DNA from: an uncultured Latescibacterota bacterium
GTDB taxonomy: Bacteria > Latescibacterota > UBA2968
NCBI GenBank assembly: GCA_951812755.1
Contig: OX638329.1
Span: 605,339 to 669,338, forward strand
Reading direction: 5' to 3'
DNA length: 64,000 nucleotides
The position numbers were made by a program, and so were the translations under genes. Under the pieces are notes generated by a model. That model was not told where the DNA came from and searched no databases. It worked only from the letters and a program-made list of their open reading frames with translations. This document shows positions 52,197-62,721 of this stretch, in pieces; position 1 is the stretch's first letter; each line of letters opens with the position of its first letter.

Positions 52197-55100
52197 TCAG
52201 GATACTTTCTTACCAAAATTATCGACAAAAATCAGAAAATCACTAACTCCAATCACACCATCCCCATCCAAGTCAAACCGTGCGTCATACCCCACATCCT
52301 CCTGACTGAACCCAAACTGATCGACAAAGAGCAAAAAGTCGGAAATACCAACAATTCCATCGCCATCAAAGTCGGGTGTAGGGGCTGACGTAGGGGTGAC
52401 ATACTGCGACATATCCCACAGCAAAATTGTGCCGTCACGTGATCCCGAAACGAGTTCTTTGCCATCGGGTGAAAACGCCACGGACTTAACGCTACCCGTA
52501 TGCCCTTCAAACGTGGCAACCTCTGTTCTGGTCGCTACATCCCATAGCACAACCTCAGGATCTGATCCTGAAGCCAGCAGCGTCCCATCGGGAGAAAATG
52601 ATACAGAGTTGACAGAACGCGTATGCCCTGTAAGCGTGGCAATATTACGCCTTGTCCCAACATCCCACAATTTGATCGTTTCATCTTGGGCCCCTGAAGC
52701 GAGTGTTGTGCCATCTGGTGAAAATGCAACAGAATAGACGGCCTCCGTATGTCCCTTAAAAGTAGTGACATTTGATTGCGTCTTAATATCCCATATTTTA
52801 ACCGTGCGATCATATCCGCCTGAAGCCAGTGTTGTGCCATCTGGTGAAAACGATAGAGAAAGTAAAGAATTGCGATGCCCTTTAAGTGTAGCGATTGTTG
52901 TTCGTGTTGCAACATCCCACAGGATGATATCGCGTTTACTCTCAATTGCAAAAATTTTACCATTCGGCGAGAATGCAACAAGACCCCCGAATAACGCATT
53001 ATTCTCATCAATAGTGAAAATATTTTGTCCTGTTGCAACATCCCACAGCTTAATATAATCTGGATATCCAGATGCGAGGATTGTACCATCGGGCGAAAAG
53101 TCCATAGAATCGACCCACATAAGATATTCAGAGAGAATAGTTGCGTTTTTCGTAGCAATATCATACAGCGTGACATCAAAAAGTGACCCTAAAGCGAGCA
53201 TTGTGCTATTTGGCGCGAATACCATAGAACGGACACGATACGCCTTAATTGTAGCGGTATTTTGCCCTGTTGCAATATCCCATAGTTCAACGCTTTCCCG
53301 TGACGCACCAGCGATGGTTGCACCATCTGGCGAGAACGCTAAAGAAATGACATTATCCTTATGTAAAAATACAGTCATCTTTTCTTTTCTGGCAACATTC
53401 CATAGGGTAATTGCATTTTTATACATTGAAGCGAGGATTGTACCATCTGGCGAGAACGCAATAGAATAAATACTACCGCCAACTTCACCTTCTTCAGCAA
53501 AAGTGGCGATATTTTCCCGCGTCGCAACATCCCATAGTTTGACCTCATCACCCTCCGCTTCTGAGACAGCGAGCGTTGTGCCGTCAGGAGAGAACGCAAG
53601 AGAAAGAACCTGACTCGAATACCCTGCAAGCGTAGCGATATTGGTTTGCGTTTCAACATCCCACAGTTTGACCTCTTGCCATGACCCAGAAGCAAGGATC
53701 TTTCCGCTTGGCGAGAAAGACACAGATCCAACACCGCCATTATGCCCCCAAAGCGTGGCAATGTGTGTTTGAGTCGCAACATCCCACAACTTGACCGTTC
53801 CATCCCTAGCCCCTGATGCAAGCATTGTACCGTCGGGGGAGAATGCAACAGCCTCAACAGATCGACTATGCCCTGTAAGTAGTTCAATTTCACGCCAGGT
53901 CGCCACATCGTAAAGCCAGATACCAATAGCACTTGCCACAGCGAAAAGTTGACCGTCTGGCGAAAACGCCAATGCTTTGCCTATGCCATCAATGACGCCT
54001 CTCCCAAGACGAACTATTGCACCATCGGGCAAATGCCATGTCTGGTAATCACCGCCCATGATTGGTATAGCAGGTGTACCGACACCCACAGCATTAAAAG
54101 TCACAGGATCAAAGCCAGCGACAGATACCTCAACCGTATTTGTTCCCGCAATAGGACCAAGCGTGAGTGTACTCTGCGCCCTGCCATTGGCATCCGTCGT
54201 TGTGTTCTCAACCGTGAACCTCCCGCTGAGCTTTCCGTCGCCTGTGGTGACTGTAAATGTGACTGGAATATCTTCAATCCCGGCACCATTCTTATCACGC
54301 ACCTCAACCATCAACAGGTTTGCCAATAACGAACCGGGCGCACCTTGTTGGTTATCGCCTGAATTTTTCACGAATGTTAAAGGATAGTTTTTATCAATGT
54401 ACTGCACAATATCCCACAGTTTGACGCTTTTATCAGCAGAGGCAGAGGCAAGGAGAGTTCCATCCGGCGAAAAGGCCACCGAGCCAACCCAATGCGTATG
54501 TCCCTTGAACGTGACGATATGCGTCCCTGCCCCTACGTACCACAGTTTGACGCTTTTATCAGCAGAGGCAGAGGCGAGGAGAGTCCCATCCGGCGAAAAC
54601 ACCACCGATTGGACATCGCTCGTATGCCCTTCGAGGGTGGCCGTATTCTCCCTTGTCGCCACGTCCCACAGCATGATCGGACCCGTCACTGTCCCCGAAG
54701 CGAGGAGGCTCCCATCTGGTGAGAACATCACTGACTTGGCCCCCACTGTATGCCCTTCGAGGGTGGCCGTATTCTCCCTTGTCGCCACGTCCCACAGCTT
54801 CACCGTGCCATCCCACGACCCCGAGGCGAGGAGAGTCCCGTCGGGCGAAAACGCCACCGAAAAAACAAAGTTTGCATGCCCTTCGAGGGTGGCCGTATTC
54901 TCCCTTGTCGCCACGTCCCACAGCTTCACCGTGCCATCCCACGACCCCGAGGCGAGGAGAGTCCCATCCGGCGAAAACGCCACCGAAGGAACATGGTCTG
55001 CATGCCCTTTAAGGGTGGCCACCTCCGTTTGCGTCGCCACGTCCCACAGCTTTACCGTGTTAAGCTCCTGCACGGACGAGGCGAGGGTGTTCCCGTCCCT

Positions 55101-56501
55101 GGAAAAGGCCACCGAGCTAACCCAATGAGGATGCACGACGAGGGTCGCGATACGTTCTCTTGTCCGCACATCCCACAACTCGACTTTCCGGAGCGACCCC
55201 GTGGCGAGGGTCCCTTCTGGCGAGAACGCCAGCGAAGTGACCGAGAACTCATGGTCGAGGCTTGCAATTAGTTGTGGAGAATATTCAGAAAGACCGAATT
55301 GCCGCCGTTTGACGTTCCCATCCGCATCAACCGCAACAACTCGCATTGTATGGACAACAGGGTCATACAGACTCGAGAAGGCTTCGGATGGGATGACGCC
55401 GTCGTAATCGAATTCGACTACGCCCACTTTCTTGCCAGCCAATCCACGACACGCTTTCACTTCGCCCTCAACCTCAACAAGCAGGATCACCTGATGAATC
55501 CCCTCCGGGTCGGCGACTTCGATCTGGACCGAGACACTTGTTGTTCCAGCCGGATATGTGCGCGGAGAGAGGAGCCGAATGGTTGGAACTGACCCCTCTT
55601 CGATTGGACTGCCTAAATTGAAGTAGGTATGCACGGCCAGGAACTCGGCAGCGCACTCGGATAGCTGATTCTGTCCCGGGCCGTAGGACATGGTGTATGC
55701 AGCATCGCGGAAGTCGTGGTACAATCCGAAGGCATGTCCAAGCTCATGCGCCACCAGGGCCCGTTGAAATTTTTCTGAGACCAACAAGAAGCCACCCTTC
55801 TTACTCCTGTCGACTCCGACACCTCTCGCAGAGGAACCCGAGACATCGATCCAATCCATGCTGTTGTCGATGACGATGTAGTAAATGTTCGCATGGAGAT
55901 TGAACCGGCGTTCAATCTCCTCAAGCACCTTGTGATTCGTGATCTGGAGATAGTGGCTATCCGCATGTTGCCCATTGACGCGATGCACCAGCGGCTCGCC
56001 CTGGGCATCGGTTTCAAAGCGAAAGGTTTTGCGACCATAGCCGTGTGCTTCCATCTGGTCGGCGTAAAAGGTCTGTACCTGGCGAATTGTCACTTTCATC
56101 AAATCAACCACTTCCTGCTGAAACGGGCGGTCATTCGGCAAGAAGTAGATCATCCGCACGGTGCGCGGTTCGCCCACGTCCAGGTCAAGGGCTTGTTTTG
56201 TGGCAGCATACAGGCTATCGCGTGCCCGTATGGCTTCGTAATCAAGCGGTAAGCAAAAAAACTCGTTATTGGCCGGTGGGGACGAAGCATAGCTGATAGA
56301 CGGAAAGCAAACACAGATGACAAGCAACCACCGCACAGGCGGCACCAGCCACCTACAATGAGCGTAGCGAATATCAACACCGATGGACACAGCACAGGCG
56401 CAGCCTACAACGTAGCGAAGCGAGTATAAGAGGCGAGGGAAAAGGTTGAGTAGTGCGAATAAGTACGCACGCAACTGGATTGGGAAGGCAAAATTTTTCA
56501 T
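52197..56501 (-). CDS. Giant secreted metzincin-like protease with WD40 arrays and dockerin-like C-terminus
   Basis: About 1434 residues from ATG 56501 (AGGAGT upstream). A GTG at 56336 would start at a cleaner signal peptide (RWLLVICVCFPSISYA); the ~50 codons between are repeat-like, so the start is uncertain. Order: a zinc protease domain with VAHELGHAFGLYHDF (HExxHxxGxxH, metzincin) and a later Met-turn-like YTMSYGPG; WD40 blades of the type VAFSPDGTLLASGSWDGTVK; a bacterial Ig-like domain (VRDKNGAGIEDIPVTFTV); a long second WD40 array; and a C-terminal pair of calcium-loop repeats (DFDGDGIVGISDFLLF, LDGDGVIGVSDFLIF). It is probably an exported surface or secreted protein; the target is unknown. 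Confidence 0.88.
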   Translation of the reverse strand: MKNFAFPIQLRAYLFALLNLFPRLLYSLRYVVGCACAVSIGVDIRYAHCRWLVPPVRWLLVICVCFPSISYASSPPANNEFFCLPLDYEAIRARDSLYAATKQALDLDVGEPRTVRMIYFLPNDRPFQQEVVDLMKVTIRQVQTFYADQMEAHGYGRKTFRFETDAQGEPLVHRVNGQHADSHYLQITNHKVLEEIERRFNLHANIYYIVIDNSMDWIDVSGSSARGVGVDRSKKGGFLLVSEKFQRALVAHELGHAFGLYHDFRDAAYTMSYGPGQNQLSECAAEFLAVHTYFNLGSPIEEGSVPTIRLLSPRTYPAGTTSVSVQIEVADPEGIHQVILLVEVEGEVKACRGLAGKKVGVVEFDYDGVIPSEAFSSLYDPVVHTMRVVAVDADGNVKRRQFGLSEYSPQLIASLDHEFSVTSLAFSPEGTLATGSLRKVELWDVRTRERIATLVVHPHWVSSVAFSRDGNTLASSVQELNTVKLWDVATQTEVATLKGHADHVPSVAFSPDGTLLASGSWDGTVKLWDVATRENTATLEGHANFVFSVAFSPDGTLLASGSWDGTVKLWDVATRENTATLEGHTVGAKSVMFSPDGSLLASGTVTGPIMLWDVATRENTATLEGHTSDVQSVVFSPDGTLLASASADKSVKLWYVGAGTHIVTFKGHTHWVGSVAFSPDGTLLASASADKSVKLWDIVQYIDKNYPLTFVKNSGDNQQGAPGSLLANLLMVEVRDKNGAGIEDIPVTFTVTTGDGKLSGRFTVENTTTDANGRAQSTLTLGPIAGTNTVEVSVAGFDPVTFNAVGVGTPAIPIMGGDYQTWHLPDGAIVRLGRGVIDGIGKALAFSPDGQLFAVASAIGIWLYDVATWREIELLTGHSRSVEAVAFSPDGTMLASGARDGTVKLWDVATQTHIATLWGHNGGVGSVSFSPSGKILASGSWQEVKLWDVETQTNIATLAGYSSQVLSLAFSPDGTTLAVSEAEGDEVKLWDVATRENIATFAEEGEVGGSIYSIAFSPDGTILASMYKNAITLWNVARKEKMTVFLHKDNVISLAFSPDGATIAGASRESVELWDIATGQNTATIKAYRVRSMVFAPNSTMLALGSLFDVTLYDIATKNATILSEYLMWVDSMDFSPDGTILASGYPDYIKLWDVATGQNIFTIDENNALFGGLVAFSPNGKIFAIESKRDIILWDVATRTTIATLKGHRNSLLSLSFSPDGTTLASGGYDRTVKIWDIKTQSNVTTFKGHTEAVYSVAFSPDGTTLASGAQDETIKLWDVGTRRNIATLTGHTRSVNSVSFSPDGTLLASGSDPEVVLWDVATRTEVATFEGHTGSVKSVAFSPDGKELVSGSRDGTILLWDMSQYVTPTSAPTPDFDGDGIVGISDFLLFVDQFGFSQEDVGYDARFDLDGDGVIGVSDFLIFVDNFGKKVS

Positions 56502-56564
56502 CAATTTGTACTCCTGGATTTGACCCGATTTAATTGTTCCTTTGTACTGGCACTCTTGTTTATA

Positions 56565-56767
56565 TGCAAAAAGCGTGCCAATAAGAGCGATGTCCAGAGA
56601 GCTATATTCGTAAAGCATTGTTTTACATAAAGAAAAAGAGCTAATCTGACTATATCAAATCGTCGCAGGATAGTCGGAATGGCTCTTTTAAAGACCTTAT
56701 ATGGTCTTAAAAGACGTACTATGGTCTCCATGGTCCCGATACCATAGTACATTCTCCATTATCATTT
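56565..56767 (-). promoter_or_regulatory. Structured upstream element A of the surface-protein genes
   Basis: About 200 bp, 64 bp upstream of ATG 56501, largely identical to 61909-62114 upstream of the LRR gene. It contains GAGC...GACTAT...ATAGTC...GCTC, AAGACC/GGTCTT (56691-56708) and GTACTATGGT/ACCATAGTAC (56716-56750) inverted repeats. It may hold the promoter, an operator or a folded leader. Confidence 0.7.
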
Positions 56768-56820
56768 AATAAATATTAAGAAAGCCCGTCAATTGGTGAT
56801 GATCGACGGGCTTTTGTTTA
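56768..56820. repeat. Second copy of the tRNA-Met terminator region
   Basis: AATAAATATTAAGAAAGCCC... with the stem AAAGCCCGTC/GACGGGCTTT, matching 52057-52108, but with no tRNA beside it. It adjoins element A exactly. Confidence 0.8.
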
Positions 56821-56871
56821 CTTTTGACTTAATCCAGGAGGTTTGGGTTGTCATCGCGGCCTGATGAGAAG

Positions 56872-57018
56872 TACATATCTTTCACCATACCACTGATTCA
56901 TCGCTCAAAATTTACACTAACGCCTGTGCTTCTCAATCGCCGCTTCAACAGACGATCCACAAATTCAAGTTGTGAACAAGAGCGCGATACTGCATATTGA
57001 AAGCATAATGATATGCCT
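56872..57018 (+). repeat. Relic of the Rpn-gene leader
   Basis: Matches 35859-36038 in order (tacatatctttcac, attcaagttgtgaacaag, catattgaaagcataatg), but no Rpn-like coding follows. A truncated REP-like start (gtcatcgcggcctg) lies just before it at 56850. Confidence 0.6.
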
Positions 57019-57068
57019 GCGTTTCTGTCGCGTCTCCTTCAGGTGCGCCCTCCTGGTCGCAGAACGGG

Positions 57069-57105
57069 ACAAACAAGCCCCCACATTTTGTGAGGGCTTG
57101 TTTGT
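57069..57105 (-). terminator. Terminator of the LRR gene
   Basis: ACAAACAAGCCC/GGGCTTGTTTGT, a perfect 12-bp stem with a 13-nt loop, about 150 bp after the stop codon. The 57106-57257 interval shows no other gene. Confidence 0.7.
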
Positions 57106-57257
57106 ATAAGATGCGCTGGCACAAAGCGAAGTGCCCGCCTTCCAATGTCAAGGATTCGGATTCAAAAATCTAACCCCAAAAGGCGCAAGTCATGGACACG
57201 TTCTCGCCGCCTGCCGCGGTGTCCGGCGTATCGTTTTGCCCGAAGGCAAGCGTTACG

Positions 57258-60200
57258 TCAACGCTCCCAAGAGGCCTCATCCGGGATGCCGTGGCTGGTC
57301 AGGATCTCCAGTCCTGGTTCTGATAGCAAAAGGCTGGCTGCAGGCCGCTTCGCAGCCGCCTGTGTGTCCCGCAGGATGCCCCGGACATTTCCCGTGCCGC
57401 GGTCCAGCAGGAGTGTAGCCGAGAGGCCGCCTTCGCCATCCAGGATGGAAACGCCTTCAGGGCCCGAAAGCGCAATGCGCGCCAGCCTGCCCGCCCAATC
57501 GTCCCGTACTGGAAGAATGAAGGCGAAAGCGCCGCCCTTGCCTCCGCACCCGTACTCAGGGATGCCATAGGGCAAGCTGAACAGGTTGTTGCCGTTGTCA
57601 TCCTCGCCCGTGAGCGTGTACGGACCGTCTATCCGCGGCAGGGAAGGCGGGGCACTGACCGCGAAAGCCGGTTCGAGAAAGGGTTTTTCATTCTCGTCCA
57701 GCCCACCCCAAATCAACAGGCCTCTCGTGGGGGGCGTGTAGGACGCCGCCAGTGGCGCGCTCTTGGCTCGAGAGCGGTGGGCAAGTGCCCTGGTAAACGA
57801 GTAGTCGCTGATCCATTGGGGATCGCAGTATGTCATCAGATCCGACGTTGCGGGGCTTACCAGCGATTTGTTGACGAAATCGTATCCCCACGCGCCGATG
57901 GTCCCGTCTTCATAGGGGTATTCCGGATCCGGACCTCCTGCGCCACATCCCGGGGCGTGTAACAGACTCAGGTTGTGTCCGAGTTCGTGCGCTATGACGT
58001 TCCCGTCGAGAATGGACTGACTAATATATCCACCTATTCGCGCTATTCCTCGCAGGCGACTTTGACCCACGCTTCTGAAGATGCCCATATAATACCCCTT
58101 CGCGCCTTCCATGGCATAAATCAACGCAGTTTCGGGCCCCAATTTGCCAGAAGCGTCCGACGTGGGATCCACAGAAGTCAATACCGGCTCATGAACCGTC
58201 AGACGGAACTCGTTCACCGGCAGGATATCGCGGGTCAGGCGGAACAGATCGGATTCGGACGACAGGCCCTCGGTTTGTGTCAATACGGAACGATCCGGGT
58301 TCTCTTCCCAAAGAAAGGGTATCAGCGTCAACTCAAAAGGCGGCACGGACCGCACGTCCAGAGCCGTGCGACCCGTCTGGGGCAGGCGGGTGACGATGCC
58401 CAGAGCCGTATCCAGGGTCTGGTTGGGATCGATTTCGACCACCATCTCCAACCCCGGCATCACGACGGAGCCGGGCACCACCGCGTTGGCTGAATTTAAT
58501 AGTGACGCCTCGTTGACCTGCCGGGGGATATTCGTGGTCTGGCCCCTGATGTTCGCCGTGTGTACCTCGACCCCGTCCCTGTAGAAGGTAGCCCGCACGG
58601 GGGGCATGGTGGCATTGACCTCCTGTTCAGCCGTGACGAACACGCGCAGCAGTGCGGCTTCGCCAGCCATTAGGGGTACGGGATATTCGAGTGATTGCGT
58701 GGCCTGCACCAGATAGGCCGCGGCTTCGTCGGAACGGGCGCAGTTGGGCACGCGACTGAACGGTATTGCCCTCAGCCACGTCAGGAACCCGGGGTCCTGC
58801 GGTGAACACAGGAGTGTTTCACTCAGTGTCAGAGATTCAAGGGTGAGACCCGTAAGGGCGTTGGGCAGTGTTCCAGAAAGGGCGCCGTTAAAGCCGAGGT
58901 TCAATGTTGTGAGATTGGCGAGTTGTCCCAGTTCCTGTGGGATATTTCCCGATAACTGGTTTGTGGATAGATTCAGTTCCTCGAGGTTGGCGAGTTGTCC
59001 CAGTTCGGAAGGAATGTTGCCCGATAGCTGGTTTGTGGATAGATTCAGTCCTTCGAGATTGGTGAGTTTCCCCAATTCCGCAGGCAGGTTGCCGGTCAAC
59101 AGGTTTTTGCCAAGGTCCAACCATGAGAGATTGGTCAACCGACCCAGTTCCGGAGGTATATTGCCTGATATTTGGTTTGAGGAGAGATGTAGCCCATAGA
59201 GGTTTTTGAGTTGTCCCAGTTCCTGTGGGATATTGCCGGATAACTGGTTGGTGGATAGATTTAAATTTCCGAGGTTTTTGAGTTGTCCCAATTCCCTGGG
59301 TATCTCGCCCGTTAGCGTGTTATTTTCTATCCATAATGTTTCGAGGTTTTTGAGTTGTCCCAGTTCCGGGGGTATGTTGCCGGTGAGGAAGTTATCGACA
59401 AGCCATAGCTTTCTGAGGTTTTTGAGTTGTCCCAGTTCGGTGGGTATCTCACCAGTCAGGCTATTGTACCACAGCGTCAGGCTTTCGAGGTTGGAGAGTT
59501 GCCCCAGTTCCGCAGGTATCTCCCCGTCCAACGGGTTGTAAGAAAGATCCAATGTTCTGAGGCTAGTGAGATGTCCCAATTCCGACGGGATATTGCCGGT
59601 CAATTGATTTTCGCTAAGGTCCAACCCTTCAAGATTGGAAAGTTGCGCCAGTTCGGTGGGTATATTGCCTGTCAACTTATTATACGCGAGAATCAGGCTA
59701 TCCAGATTGGCGAGATGTCCCAGTTCCTGTGGGATATTGCCCGATATCTGGTTTTTGGACAGATTCAGATCTGCGAGACTGGTGAGTTTCCCCAATTCCG
59801 GGGGTATGTTGTCGGTCAACTGATTTGTGGACAGATTCAGCGATTCGAGATTGGCGAGTTGCGCCAGTTCTACTGGTATCGTCCCTTGCAGGTTGTTGTC
59901 ATTCAGAGACAATTCGGTCACGCGCTCGCTGGCATCTGTGGTTACGCCATACCAACCGCCGAGGGGCGCGTCGCTCGCCCAATTCGTCGCGTTTGTCCAG
60001 TTTGCTCCTTCCGTCCCGCTGTACAGCGCGACCAAAGCGTAATAATCCAGGCGGGCGTCGGTACACTGGGCAACCTCGCTTTCCCGTATTCCATCGAGCC
60101 ACGTCTGGAATTCGTCGCGGGGGGGTGCGCACAGCCGCGTTTCTTCCAGTTCGAGAGATTCGAGAGTGAGTCGCGTAAACCCCTGGGGCAATGGACCGGA

Positions 60201-61871
60201 CAGGGCCGCGTTGCCAGCGAGGTTCAGTGTTCTCAGGTTGTCCAAATTGCTCAGTGAAGGGGGAAGGAGACCGCTCAGGTTGTTGTCCCTCAGGTTTAAT
60301 TCGGTCACGCGTCCGTCGGCATTGGTGGTCACGCCATACCAATCGTCCAGAGGCTCCAGGGTCGTCCAGTTTTTGTTGTTCGTCCAATTCGGTCCGTTCG
60401 TCTGCTTATAGAGCGCGATCAACGCATCCCGTTCCGGGTCAGCGCAGTGGGTACCTCCCCTTTTTTCGGGAATACTGTCGAGCCATTCCACGAATGCGCC
60501 GGTCAGAGGTACGCACATCCCGGTGTCTGCCAAATAGAGTATTTCCAGAGAGAGGTCTATGAGTGCCGGAGGCAATGGTCCCGATAGATCGGCGTTTCCA
60601 CTGAGAATCAGTTGGGTGAGATTTGTGAGTTGTGCCAGTTCAGTTGGAATCGTCCCTGTCAACTGGTTCCCGCCAAGGTTCAGAAATGTTAGATTTGTGA
60701 GTTGTGCCAGTCCCGCTGGAATCGTCCCTGTCAACTGGTTCCCGCCAAGGTTCAGAAATGTTAGATTTGTGAGTTGTGCCAGTTCAGTTGGGATCGTCCC
60801 TGTCAACTGATTAAAGCCAAGGTTCAGAAATGTTAGATTTGTGAGTTGTGCCAGTTCAGTTGGGATCGTCCCTGTCAACTGATTAAAGCCAAGGTTCAGC
60901 CATGTTAGATTTGTGAGTTGTGCCAGTCCCGCTGGAATCGTCCCTGTCAACTGGTTCCCGCGAAGGTCCAGAAATGTTAGATTTGTGAGTTGTGCCAGTT
61001 CAGTTGGGATCGTCCCTGCCAACTGGTTCACGTCAAGGAATAGCCATGTTAGATTTGTGAGTTGTGCCAGTTCAGTTGGGATCGTCCCTGTCAACTGGTT
61101 CACGCTAAGGCTCAGCGATGTTAAATTTGTGAGTTGTGCCAGTTCAGTTGGGATCGTCCCTGTCAACTGGTTCACGTTAAGGCTCAGATCTGTTAGATTT
61201 GTGAGTTGTGCCAGTTCAGTTGGGATCGTCCCTGTCAACTGGTTCACGCTAAGGCCCAGCCATGTTAAATTTGTGAGTTGTGCCAGTTCAGTTGGGATCG
61301 TCCCTGTCAACTGGTTTCCGTTAAGGTTCAGAAATGTTAGATTTGTGAGTTGTGCCAGTTCAGTTGGGATCGCCCCTTGCAGGTTGTTATCCCTCAGTCT
61401 CAAATGGACCACACGCCCGTTGGTGTCGGTGGTCACGCCGTGCCAGTCGCCGAGGGGCGCGGTGCTCAACCAGTTCTCTTTGTTTGTCCAGTTCGGTCCA
61501 TTAGTCGCCTCGTAGAGTCTGACCAGTACTGCCCTGTCGTCGAGAACCATCTCTTTGCCGAAGTTCTCCGTGAAGATCAGAAAATCGCTAATTCCAATTG
61601 TTCCATTACCATCCAGATCATACCGCGCTTCATATCCCTCATCACCCTGGCGCGACCCGAACACATCTACAAACAGCAAGAAGTCGGAGATACCAACTGT
61701 CCCATCGCCGTCAAAGTCGGGAGAGGGATTGGCGTTGTCGTTATTTTCATTAGACGAGACCGCAGGGGTTGTTGTGAGTTTGTCGTTTGCATTTGAACCC
61801 GTGGAGGCATAACCCACAAATGCCAGTAACACAAGGGTAATAATAAATAGGATCTCTTTTTTTAAAAACAT
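57258..61871 (-). CDS. Giant LRR surface protein with dockerin-like N-terminus and C-terminal zinc metalloprotease
   Basis: About 1537 residues from ATG 61871, with AAAGGG upstream. Signal peptide/lipobox-free leader (about 1-25); a paired calcium-loop module at about 48-107 (DFDGDGTVGISDFLLFVDVF, YDLDGNGTIGISDFLIF); then three blocks of plant-type LRRs, each introduced by LYxxTNGPNWTNxxNW and built of LTGTIPTELAQLTNLTxLxL-like 24-residue units. From about 1040 come non-LRR domains, and at about 1295 HELGHNLSLLHAPGCG, a HExxH...H zinc site followed by SDLMTYCDP. It is most likely exported; the LRRs would bind a protein or glycan and the protease act on it. Many LRR units are near-identical at DNA level. 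Confidence 0.88.
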   Translation of the reverse strand: MFLKKEILFIITLVLLAFVGYASTGSNANDKLTTTPAVSSNENNDNANPSPDFDGDGTVGISDFLLFVDVFGSRQGDEGYEARYDLDGNGTIGISDFLIFTENFGKEMVLDDRAVLVRLYEATNGPNWTNKENWLSTAPLGDWHGVTTDTNGRVVHLRLRDNNLQGAIPTELAQLTNLTFLNLNGNQLTGTIPTELAQLTNLTWLGLSVNQLTGTIPTELAQLTNLTDLSLNVNQLTGTIPTELAQLTNLTSLSLSVNQLTGTIPTELAQLTNLTWLFLDVNQLAGTIPTELAQLTNLTFLDLRGNQLTGTIPAGLAQLTNLTWLNLGFNQLTGTIPTELAQLTNLTFLNLGFNQLTGTIPTELAQLTNLTFLNLGGNQLTGTIPAGLAQLTNLTFLNLGGNQLTGTIPTELAQLTNLTQLILSGNADLSGPLPPALIDLSLEILYLADTGMCVPLTGAFVEWLDSIPEKRGGTHCADPERDALIALYKQTNGPNWTNNKNWTTLEPLDDWYGVTTNADGRVTELNLRDNNLSGLLPPSLSNLDNLRTLNLAGNAALSGPLPQGFTRLTLESLELEETRLCAPPRDEFQTWLDGIRESEVAQCTDARLDYYALVALYSGTEGANWTNATNWASDAPLGGWYGVTTDASERVTELSLNDNNLQGTIPVELAQLANLESLNLSTNQLTDNIPPELGKLTSLADLNLSKNQISGNIPQELGHLANLDSLILAYNKLTGNIPTELAQLSNLEGLDLSENQLTGNIPSELGHLTSLRTLDLSYNPLDGEIPAELGQLSNLESLTLWYNSLTGEIPTELGQLKNLRKLWLVDNFLTGNIPPELGQLKNLETLWIENNTLTGEIPRELGQLKNLGNLNLSTNQLSGNIPQELGQLKNLYGLHLSSNQISGNIPPELGRLTNLSWLDLGKNLLTGNLPAELGKLTNLEGLNLSTNQLSGNIPSELGQLANLEELNLSTNQLSGNIPQELGQLANLTTLNLGFNGALSGTLPNALTGLTLESLTLSETLLCSPQDPGFLTWLRAIPFSRVPNCARSDEAAAYLVQATQSLEYPVPLMAGEAALLRVFVTAEQEVNATMPPVRATFYRDGVEVHTANIRGQTTNIPRQVNEASLLNSANAVVPGSVVMPGLEMVVEIDPNQTLDTALGIVTRLPQTGRTALDVRSVPPFELTLIPFLWEENPDRSVLTQTEGLSSESDLFRLTRDILPVNEFRLTVHEPVLTSVDPTSDASGKLGPETALIYAMEGAKGYYMGIFRSVGQSRLRGIARIGGYISQSILDGNVIAHELGHNLSLLHAPGCGAGGPDPEYPYEDGTIGAWGYDFVNKSLVSPATSDLMTYCDPQWISDYSFTRALAHRSRAKSAPLAASYTPPTRGLLIWGGLDENEKPFLEPAFAVSAPPSLPRIDGPYTLTGEDDNGNNLFSLPYGIPEYGCGGKGGAFAFILPVRDDWAGRLARIALSGPEGVSILDGEGGLSATLLLDRGTGNVRGILRDTQAAAKRPAASLLLSEPGLEILTSHGIPDEASWER

Positions 61872-61908
61872 TTGCAAATCCCTTTAGAAAAAGAAAATTT
61901 GATTTAAG

Positions 61909-62114
61909 TGCAAAAAGCGTGCCAGTAGAAGCGTTGTTATAGAGATCTATATTCGTAAAGCGTTGTTTTACATAAAGAAAAAGAGCTAATCTGACTATAT
62001 CGTAGCGTCGCAGAATAGTCGGAGTGGCTCTTTTGCAAGACCTTATATGGTCTTTCAAGACGTACTATGGTCTCAATGGTCCCGAGACCATAGTACATTC
62101 TTCATTATCATTTT
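61909..62114 (-). promoter_or_regulatory. Structured upstream element B of the surface-protein genes
   Basis: Counterpart of 56565-56767, 38 bp upstream of ATG 61871. The terminal hairpin is perfect here: GTACTATGGTCTC/GAGACCATAGTAC (62062-62096), with AAGACC/GGTCTT just before it. Compensating differences between A and B keep the stems. Confidence 0.72.
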
Positions 62115-62145
62115 CCGTTTGCAAGTGTGAGATACAATGTATGAA

Positions 62146-62721
62146 TTAGTTTTTTTCCCATATCATATAGCAGGCACTTTGGTCTGGATATTGCTCTTCG
62201 ATCATTTGCCAAAATTTCTTTCTTTGTCTCTCTTTGCTTCTAAGCTGGAGCAACGGTTGCAACCGATAGACAGATAGGAAATTTAGTCCTGGGTCTGAGT
62301 CATCTATCTCCAAGATAAAGTCTTTAATTTCTTCATCCAGTTTGAGTAGCTGTAGAATCAAGCGGGTTTTCGTTCTCGAAATTCCTACCTGTTTAGCAAG
62401 TGCGGTCTGAGATTGAACATAGCCCTTTTCAAGAAGTTCGTGATAATACATGGCCTTTTTGAGATAGTTGGGATGGTGCAATTTTCGAGTAACTAATTGT
62501 TTTTGGGGCTTATGTCCGATTGCGATTATGGGTTTATTGTTTCTGCGGAAGTGATGGATGGGGAAGTGATCCCTTACGGTAAAAAGTTCAGTGAGTGGCA
62601 CGGTCGGGCTACCAAAAGTATCGTCTCGCTGAACTTGATCTATCTCCAAAGGTCGTAAGTTTTTGCTGCGATGAACAGCACTTACGGCCTTTTGTTTTAG
62701 CTCCGCCAGAGGTGCATCCAT
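62146..62721 (-). CDS. HTH (ParB/KorB-like) DNA-binding protein
   Basis: 191 residues; AAGG lies about 10 bases before the ATG. The N-terminal ~90 residues are basic and unassigned. About residues 90-150 contain a helix-turn-helix, ALAKQVGISRTKTRLILQLL, preceded by YYHELLEKGYVQSQT and followed by LDEEIKDFILE, as in the HTH of ParB/KorB-like proteins and of small proteins linked to recombinases. It lies upstream of element B and of the LRR gene, so it may regulate the surface genes or belong to a mobile element. No integrase is near. Confidence 0.6.
   Translation of the reverse strand: MDAPLAELKQKAVSAVHRSKNLRPLEIDQVQRDDTFGSPTVPLTELFTVRDHFPIHHFRRNNKPIIAIGHKPQKQLVTRKLHHPNYLKKAMYYHELLEKGYVQSQTALAKQVGISRTKTRLILQLLKLDEEIKDFILEIDDSDPGLNFLSVYRLQPLLQLRSKERQRKKFWQMIEEQYPDQSACYMIWEKN

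Follow-up and report, generated by a model that had tools for sequence, protein, structure and literature searches.

Putative sigma-54 promoter modules and propeller-bearing activators associated with surface-protein genes in an uncultured Latescibacterota bacterium

The closest precedent for the locus described here is the PEP-CTERM box with PrsR/PrsK/PrsT (Haft 2006, PMC1569441), where a -24/-12 element and an upstream activator box precede many single surface-protein genes and where the cognate activator (EBP) was found by phylogenetic profile. PrsR, a response regulator, works with a membrane kinase, and its targets carry PEP-CTERM, whereas we find a one-component, propeller-bearing EBP that is often encoded beside the module, targets of WD40, LRR and FGE type, and operator words that differ between cassettes. 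No receiver domain was detected in these propeller EBPs, whose match to the NCBIfam model PEP_resp_reg was restricted to the AAA+/HTH part and fell short of the cut-off. Their sensor resembles that of the Bacteroides HTCS (Martens 2011, PMC3243724), which also combine Reg_prop and Y_Y_Y and occur as many paralogues tied to adjacent loci. HTCS, however, span the membrane and carry a histidine kinase, a receiver and an AraC-type output, in contrast to the sigma-54 AAA+ output found here. The propeller EBP is neither HTCS nor PrsR.

In their N-terminal sensor, central activator domain and C-terminal HTH_8, and in the sigma-54 control of the cell exterior, the proteins resemble the type Ib sigma-54 EBPs (Francke 2011, PMC3162934); that survey gives PAS and GAF as common EBP sensors, and the word "propeller" was not found in its text. 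N6-spaced dyads upstream of sigma-54 genes are also known from repeats of the DVU2894/FlrA type (yGTCA-N6-TGACr, PMC4641369), but the module described here has a different word (AGACC-N6-GGTCT), a tandem array and another regulator architecture. In the literature searched we found no description of an HTCS-like propeller sensor joined to a sigma-54 output, and nothing relevant on Reg_prop with sigma-54 or on Latescibacter or Poribacteria with sigma-54.

The module and its promoter core

The window (the whole stretch of 64,000 nucleotides that was analysed) contains two copies of the module, A and B, which share 90% identity across 205 bp, with a drop in identity at either border, in agreement with the original prediction of two largely identical stretches of about 200 bp. 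The features are:

56565 to 56771, minus strand: whole module, copy A (c02), from alignment and genome search
61909 to 62114, minus strand: whole module, copy B (c01), from alignment and genome search
56566 to 56580, minus strand: sigma-54 -24/-12 core of copy A, exact match to TGGCACGCTTTTTGC
61910 to 61924, minus strand: sigma-54 -24/-12 core of copy B, exact match to TGGCACGCTTTTTGC
56634 to 56653 and 56670 to 56689, no strand: arms of stem 1, copy A, followed by a T-run in gene direction; possible terminator
61979 to 61998 and 62015 to 62034, no strand: arms of stem 1, copy B; possible terminator
56691 to 56708, no strand: dyad d2, copy A, AAGACCTTATATGGTCTT; candidate activator site
62037 to 62054, no strand: dyad d2, copy B, AAGACCTTATATGGTCTT
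56711 to 56728, no strand: dyad d3, copy A, AAGACGTACTATGGTCTC, 20 bp from d2
62057 to 62074, no strand: dyad d3, copy B, AAGACGTACTATGGTCTC
56716 to 56750, no strand: outer palindrome, copy A, imperfect
62062 to 62096, no strand: outer palindrome, copy B, perfect 13-bp arms at 62062-62074 and 62084-62096
52197 to 56501, minus strand: target gene A, encoding a secreted WD40 protein of 1434 aa with dockerin-like repeats; start moved to the ATG at 56501
57258 to 61871, minus strand: target gene B, encoding a secreted LRR protein of 1537 aa with an M66-like peptidase match and dockerin-like repeats
62115 to 62165, no strand: remnant, beside copy B, of the leader that precedes a divergent EBP gene elsewhere

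All 16 copies of the genome end, in gene direction, in TGGCAC[GA][CA]TTTTTGC, which is the sigma-54 -24/-12 consensus, and a recognisable core (consensus TGGCACN5TTGC) is kept in 59/59 modules compared from this genome and its relatives, modules that share descent, so that counts across them are not independent. In both window copies the core reads TGGCACGCTTTTTGC on the minus strand and points at the surface gene (2 exact matches in the window vs 0.20 expected at one mismatch or fewer), and in the genome the core pattern gave 29 matches vs 0 for a reversed control pattern. RpoN is represented by one Sigma54_DBD match (E 4e-59). We consider it highly likely that each copy is a sigma-54-dependent promoter module with enhancer dyads, activated by EBPs of the composition Reg_prop/Y_Y_Y/AAA+/HTH_8. 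The earlier proposal, a shared regulatory module ahead of surface-protein genes, is supported, although it had missed the decisive feature, the sigma-54 promoter.

Judging from the spacing to the GC of the -12 element, transcripts are predicted to start near 56554 (copy A) and 61898 (copy B) on the minus strand, and short leaders separate these positions from the start codons at 56501 and 61871. The ORF list first gives the WD40 gene a start at 56618, which reaches into the element; 56501, with CAGGAG upstream, is the likely start. The LRR gene likely starts at 61871 with AAAGGGA upstream, and both copies thus lie wholly upstream of coding sequence. In about half of the genome's own copies a stretch like TCCCGTCAGGGCGATGA, shared by the leaders of c04, c05, c06, c09, c11, c12 and c14 (e.g. 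L021 5260-5370), follows the -12 element ahead of the start codon and might act as a leader element. The genome has six sites of the type TGGCACTCTTTTTGC; the two that were inspected (L102 at about 1656951 and L100 at about 4259400, genome coordinates) lie inside what seems to be the same transposase reading frame and are therefore probably not promoters.

The inverted repeats noticed earlier in both copies were confirmed, including the perfect 13-bp arms, which are present in copy B only and contain a mismatch in copy A. Among the forms first envisaged for the module was a folded, riboswitch- or attenuator-like RNA leader acting in the transcript of the surface gene. Copy B does fold far better than its shuffles (z -5.65 as RNA, -5.28 as DNA), and covariance analysis of the stems revealed modest co-variation of paired positions, a result compatible with DNA dyads as well as with RNA stems. 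But the hairpins are found upstream of the -24/-12 promoter and therefore outside the predicted transcript, where enhancers belong; an Rfam scan returned nothing above gathering score; the two to three dyads of a module have one word in common, and these words follow the HTH of the EBPs (see below); and an internal mismatch in stem 1 is kept in 42/44 sequences. An RNA leader is for these reasons a very improbable explanation. The inverted repeats and the surface-protein targets had also suggested a phase-variable, i.e. invertible, promoter, a reading to which we attach next to no probability because the promoter, wherever a copy has a clear target, faces the gene downstream, and no gene for a recombinase was seen adjacent to the copies.

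Stem 1, with arms of 20 nt that are 85% complementary in copies A and B, is the best conserved stem of the module, is followed by a T-run in gene direction and reaches about -14 kcal/mol. It is plausibly a terminator that would keep read-through out of the promoter; a simple terminator scan did not call it because its loop is longer than the limit of the scan. Another terminator-like hairpin, AAAGCCCGTC...GACGGGCTTT, is located just past copy A (window 56781-56814) and likewise after c05.

Distribution of the module

Searching the genome (6.53 Mb, one contig) recovered the 16 copies with E values from 1e-103 to 4e-10, so that the repeat is not due to chance, and six of them (c01-c06), including both window copies, form one run. 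A covariance model of the module detected it in 11/60 genomes, own genome included. The giant propeller EBP is present in 11/11 module-bearing genomes, and no module was found in any of the 38 genomes that lack the propeller EBP. One genome (G016) is the sole one of four of its genus to have module and EBP, and there the two are adjacent. Among named records, the closest are for the most part Latescibacterota MAGs.

Many of the own copies are 80-90% identical along most of the module, spacer included, several orphan copies precede unrelated genes, and the flanks of some copies look segmentally duplicated. This would suit a simple mobile or amplified, MITE-like repeat that lies near genes by accident and whose ends are the hairpins. 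Yet the borders of the module match functional parts, it keeps a constant orientation and a constant distance to gene starts, the promoter core is kept while the dyads diverge on both arms, and the linkage to the EBP extends across genomes, all of which makes such a repeat unlikely. No terminal inverted repeats were obvious by eye in the own copies. An IS200/IS605 element or MITE as the whole explanation, first suspected from the hairpins, was given up in view of the -24/-12 core and the EBP linkage; duplication or recombination may still have been the route by which the module spread, alongside its function as a promoter. At L022 9605-10007, two diverged modules (w22, then c10) stand in tandem ahead of one secreted-protein gene.

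Propeller activators, contact loop and operator words

About 25 strong Sigma54_activat matches were found in the genome, and ten of these proteins form one family of about 1,070 residues. A Pfam scan identified Reg_prop repeats, Y_Y_Y, the Sigma54_activat AAA+ domain with its lid (with Walker A and B in the linked EBPs) and a C-terminal HTH_8 (Fis-type), and no histidine kinase, receiver or AraC HTH. The propeller EBPs have no signal peptide, their N-terminus beginning directly with the propeller, and those of this genome show no membrane-type hydrophobic segment, save for a doubtful extended start in L097. The family extends to an uncultured Gemmatimonadaceae record with 36% identity and the same domain order. 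An EBP adjoins 28/59 modules, 17 of them in divergent orientation (including c11, whose EBP is a remnant) and 11 after the 3' end of the EBP; a further 5/59 lie beside other EBP remnants, and for 26/59 no EBP was found in the stretch seen, some of these being at contig ends. At c06, c08, c09, c12, c14 and c16 the module separates the neighbouring gene from a divergently oriented EBP, and at c05 and c13 it directly follows the 3' end of the EBP. Very probably, these giant propeller-bearing activators, often encoded alongside, switch the block on. The EBP beside c09 (L021 16222-18905) spans two separate reading frames and is possibly a pseudogene.

The sigma-54 contact loop of these EBPs provides an internal control. 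Within the genus it reads GAFTGA in some EBPs, GAFT[SNT]A in most and GAFA[SN]A in five, the commonest form being GAFTSA rather than GAFTGA; a published survey considers the change of G5 to S putatively functional and most changes of T4 inactive (PMC3162934). Allowing up to 600 bp on the divergent side of the EBP or up to 500 bp beyond its 3' end, a sigma-54 site was found for 35/35 testable GAFT-loop EBPs (32 + 3), a set found in part through the modules and from which L228 was left out since its contig ends 83 bp downstream, vs 0/5 GAFA-loop EBPs of the genus (Fisher p 1.7e-5 for 32/0 vs 0/4). The chance rate of such a site is about 5% per EBP, and the own genome together with the loci found EBP-first shows the same split. 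The branch with GAFA[SN]A and no sigma-54 site (L097 9563-12829, L219, L224, L225 and L229) may perhaps have turned into sigma-54-independent regulators. In six EBPs from other genera of the class (L207-L212) the contact loop is wholly replaced (e.g. CENETATSEI), and again no adjacent sigma-54 site is present.

Among the upstream hairpins are dyads AGACC-N6-GGTCT in tandem, spaced by about 20 bp (112 sites vs 3.5 in shuffles, in related and hence not independent sequences), situated about 105-150 bp before the -24 box. This is the layout of enhancer sites; the dyads are candidate activator sites, and of the forms first proposed for the module the operator array is the one that fits. More distant cassettes keep the promoter and the dyad layout, with a dyad word that has changed on both arms and is repeated within the module (GATCATATACGATC-type three times in L221, GACGTTATAACGTCT in L170, GAACCATATACGGTTC in L096 and L166). 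A 7-mer occurs at least three times in 26/68 modules vs 3 expected. Words that change on both arms and recur in the module look like private sites of paralogous proteins and would not be expected of RNA stems. Once propeller and AAA+ distances are corrected for, operator distance still tracks HTH distance (r 0.27, p 0.001), whereas the correlation of propeller and operator vanishes given the HTH (r 0.07, p 0.18) and a weaker residual correlation remains for the AAA+ domain; since the words came from an automatic extraction with noisy output, this co-variation supports rather than decides the assignment. Direct repeats around GTGTGAGATACAAT were also observed in the leaders of divergent EBP genes (L024 10165-10290, L020 10250-10385, L018 12740-12870) and are possibly a control site of these genes themselves.

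As the genome encodes several further EBPs, the sigma-54 promoter might be served by another of the approximately 25, or stem 1, being the best conserved stem, might be the binding site. We hold this to be rather unlikely, since the loop-site correlation and the co-variation of HTH and operator tie the propeller EBPs to the module, and stem 1 changes little between cassettes with differing HTH. With the propeller EBP as activator, RNA polymerase with RpoN would sit in a closed state at -24/-12 before the surface gene, and the EBP would bind the upstream dyads, assemble and, once its propeller sensor meets a signal, open the promoter with ATP. Cassettes with different dyad words, each matched to its own EBP, would be insulated from one another, while modules with a common word would form one regulon.

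Target genes, orphaned copies and implications

The genes downstream of the modules encode LRR, WD40, FGE-sulfatase/PKD, fibronectin III and multicopper-oxidase proteins. At 32/44 strong modules, vs about 4% of random positions, an ORF with a ribosome binding site and a hydrophobic N-terminus follows within 400 bp, as judged by a hydrophobicity rule rather than a trained signal-peptide predictor. The expectation that copies precede dockerin-like surface genes thus holds as regards secreted-protein genes, but dockerin-like repeats are present in many target proteins and not in all. In one case (c15, L025 10264-10905) the module is found ahead of an XRE-type HTH gene instead of a gene for a secreted protein.

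The window copies have no adjacent EBP. Copy B (c01), c03 and c04 retain sequence like the leader of an EBP gene without the EBP and therefore resemble cassette ends that have been orphaned. At 686535-689756 of the genome, about 20 kb from the window modules and within the run c01-c06, lies the gene of the nearest EBP that has this AGACCATATAAGGTCT word, and the word is common to these and to the modules beside that EBP. The shared word suggests that both window genes are probably driven in trans by this EBP, and we moderately favour assigning the orphans to its putative regulon. A small gene with a ParB-type HTH (window 62146-62721, minus strand), whose last codons overlap the EBP-leader remnant, adjoins c01, and a similar gene adjoins c03. 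Its relatives occur intact and broken elsewhere in the genome (L028, L029, L030, fragments L031-L034). Because homologues are found elsewhere without the module, it was rejected as part of the element and is probably a chance neighbour.

Eukaryote-like repeat proteins (WD40, LRR and others) have been reported from sponge-associated Latescibacterota (PMC12993501), and in the literature searched we found nothing on what switches them on. The module would let the bacterium co-regulate such large secreted proteins. From the sequence comparisons we incline to the view that in Latescibacterota-like bacteria a large family of soluble one-component propeller EBPs with private operator words forms insulated sigma-54 cassettes that set the display of eukaryote-like surface proteins (WD40, LRR, FGE, multicopper oxidase) cassette by cassette, and that a side branch lost its contact loop together with the sigma-54 promoters. 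A propeller sensor of the HTCS kind would here be joined to a sigma-54 output, and the joint disappearance of sigma-54 contact loop and sigma-54 promoter represents a natural experiment. The outcome is a concrete candidate regulator, a putative operator code and a putative regulon that are open to testing.
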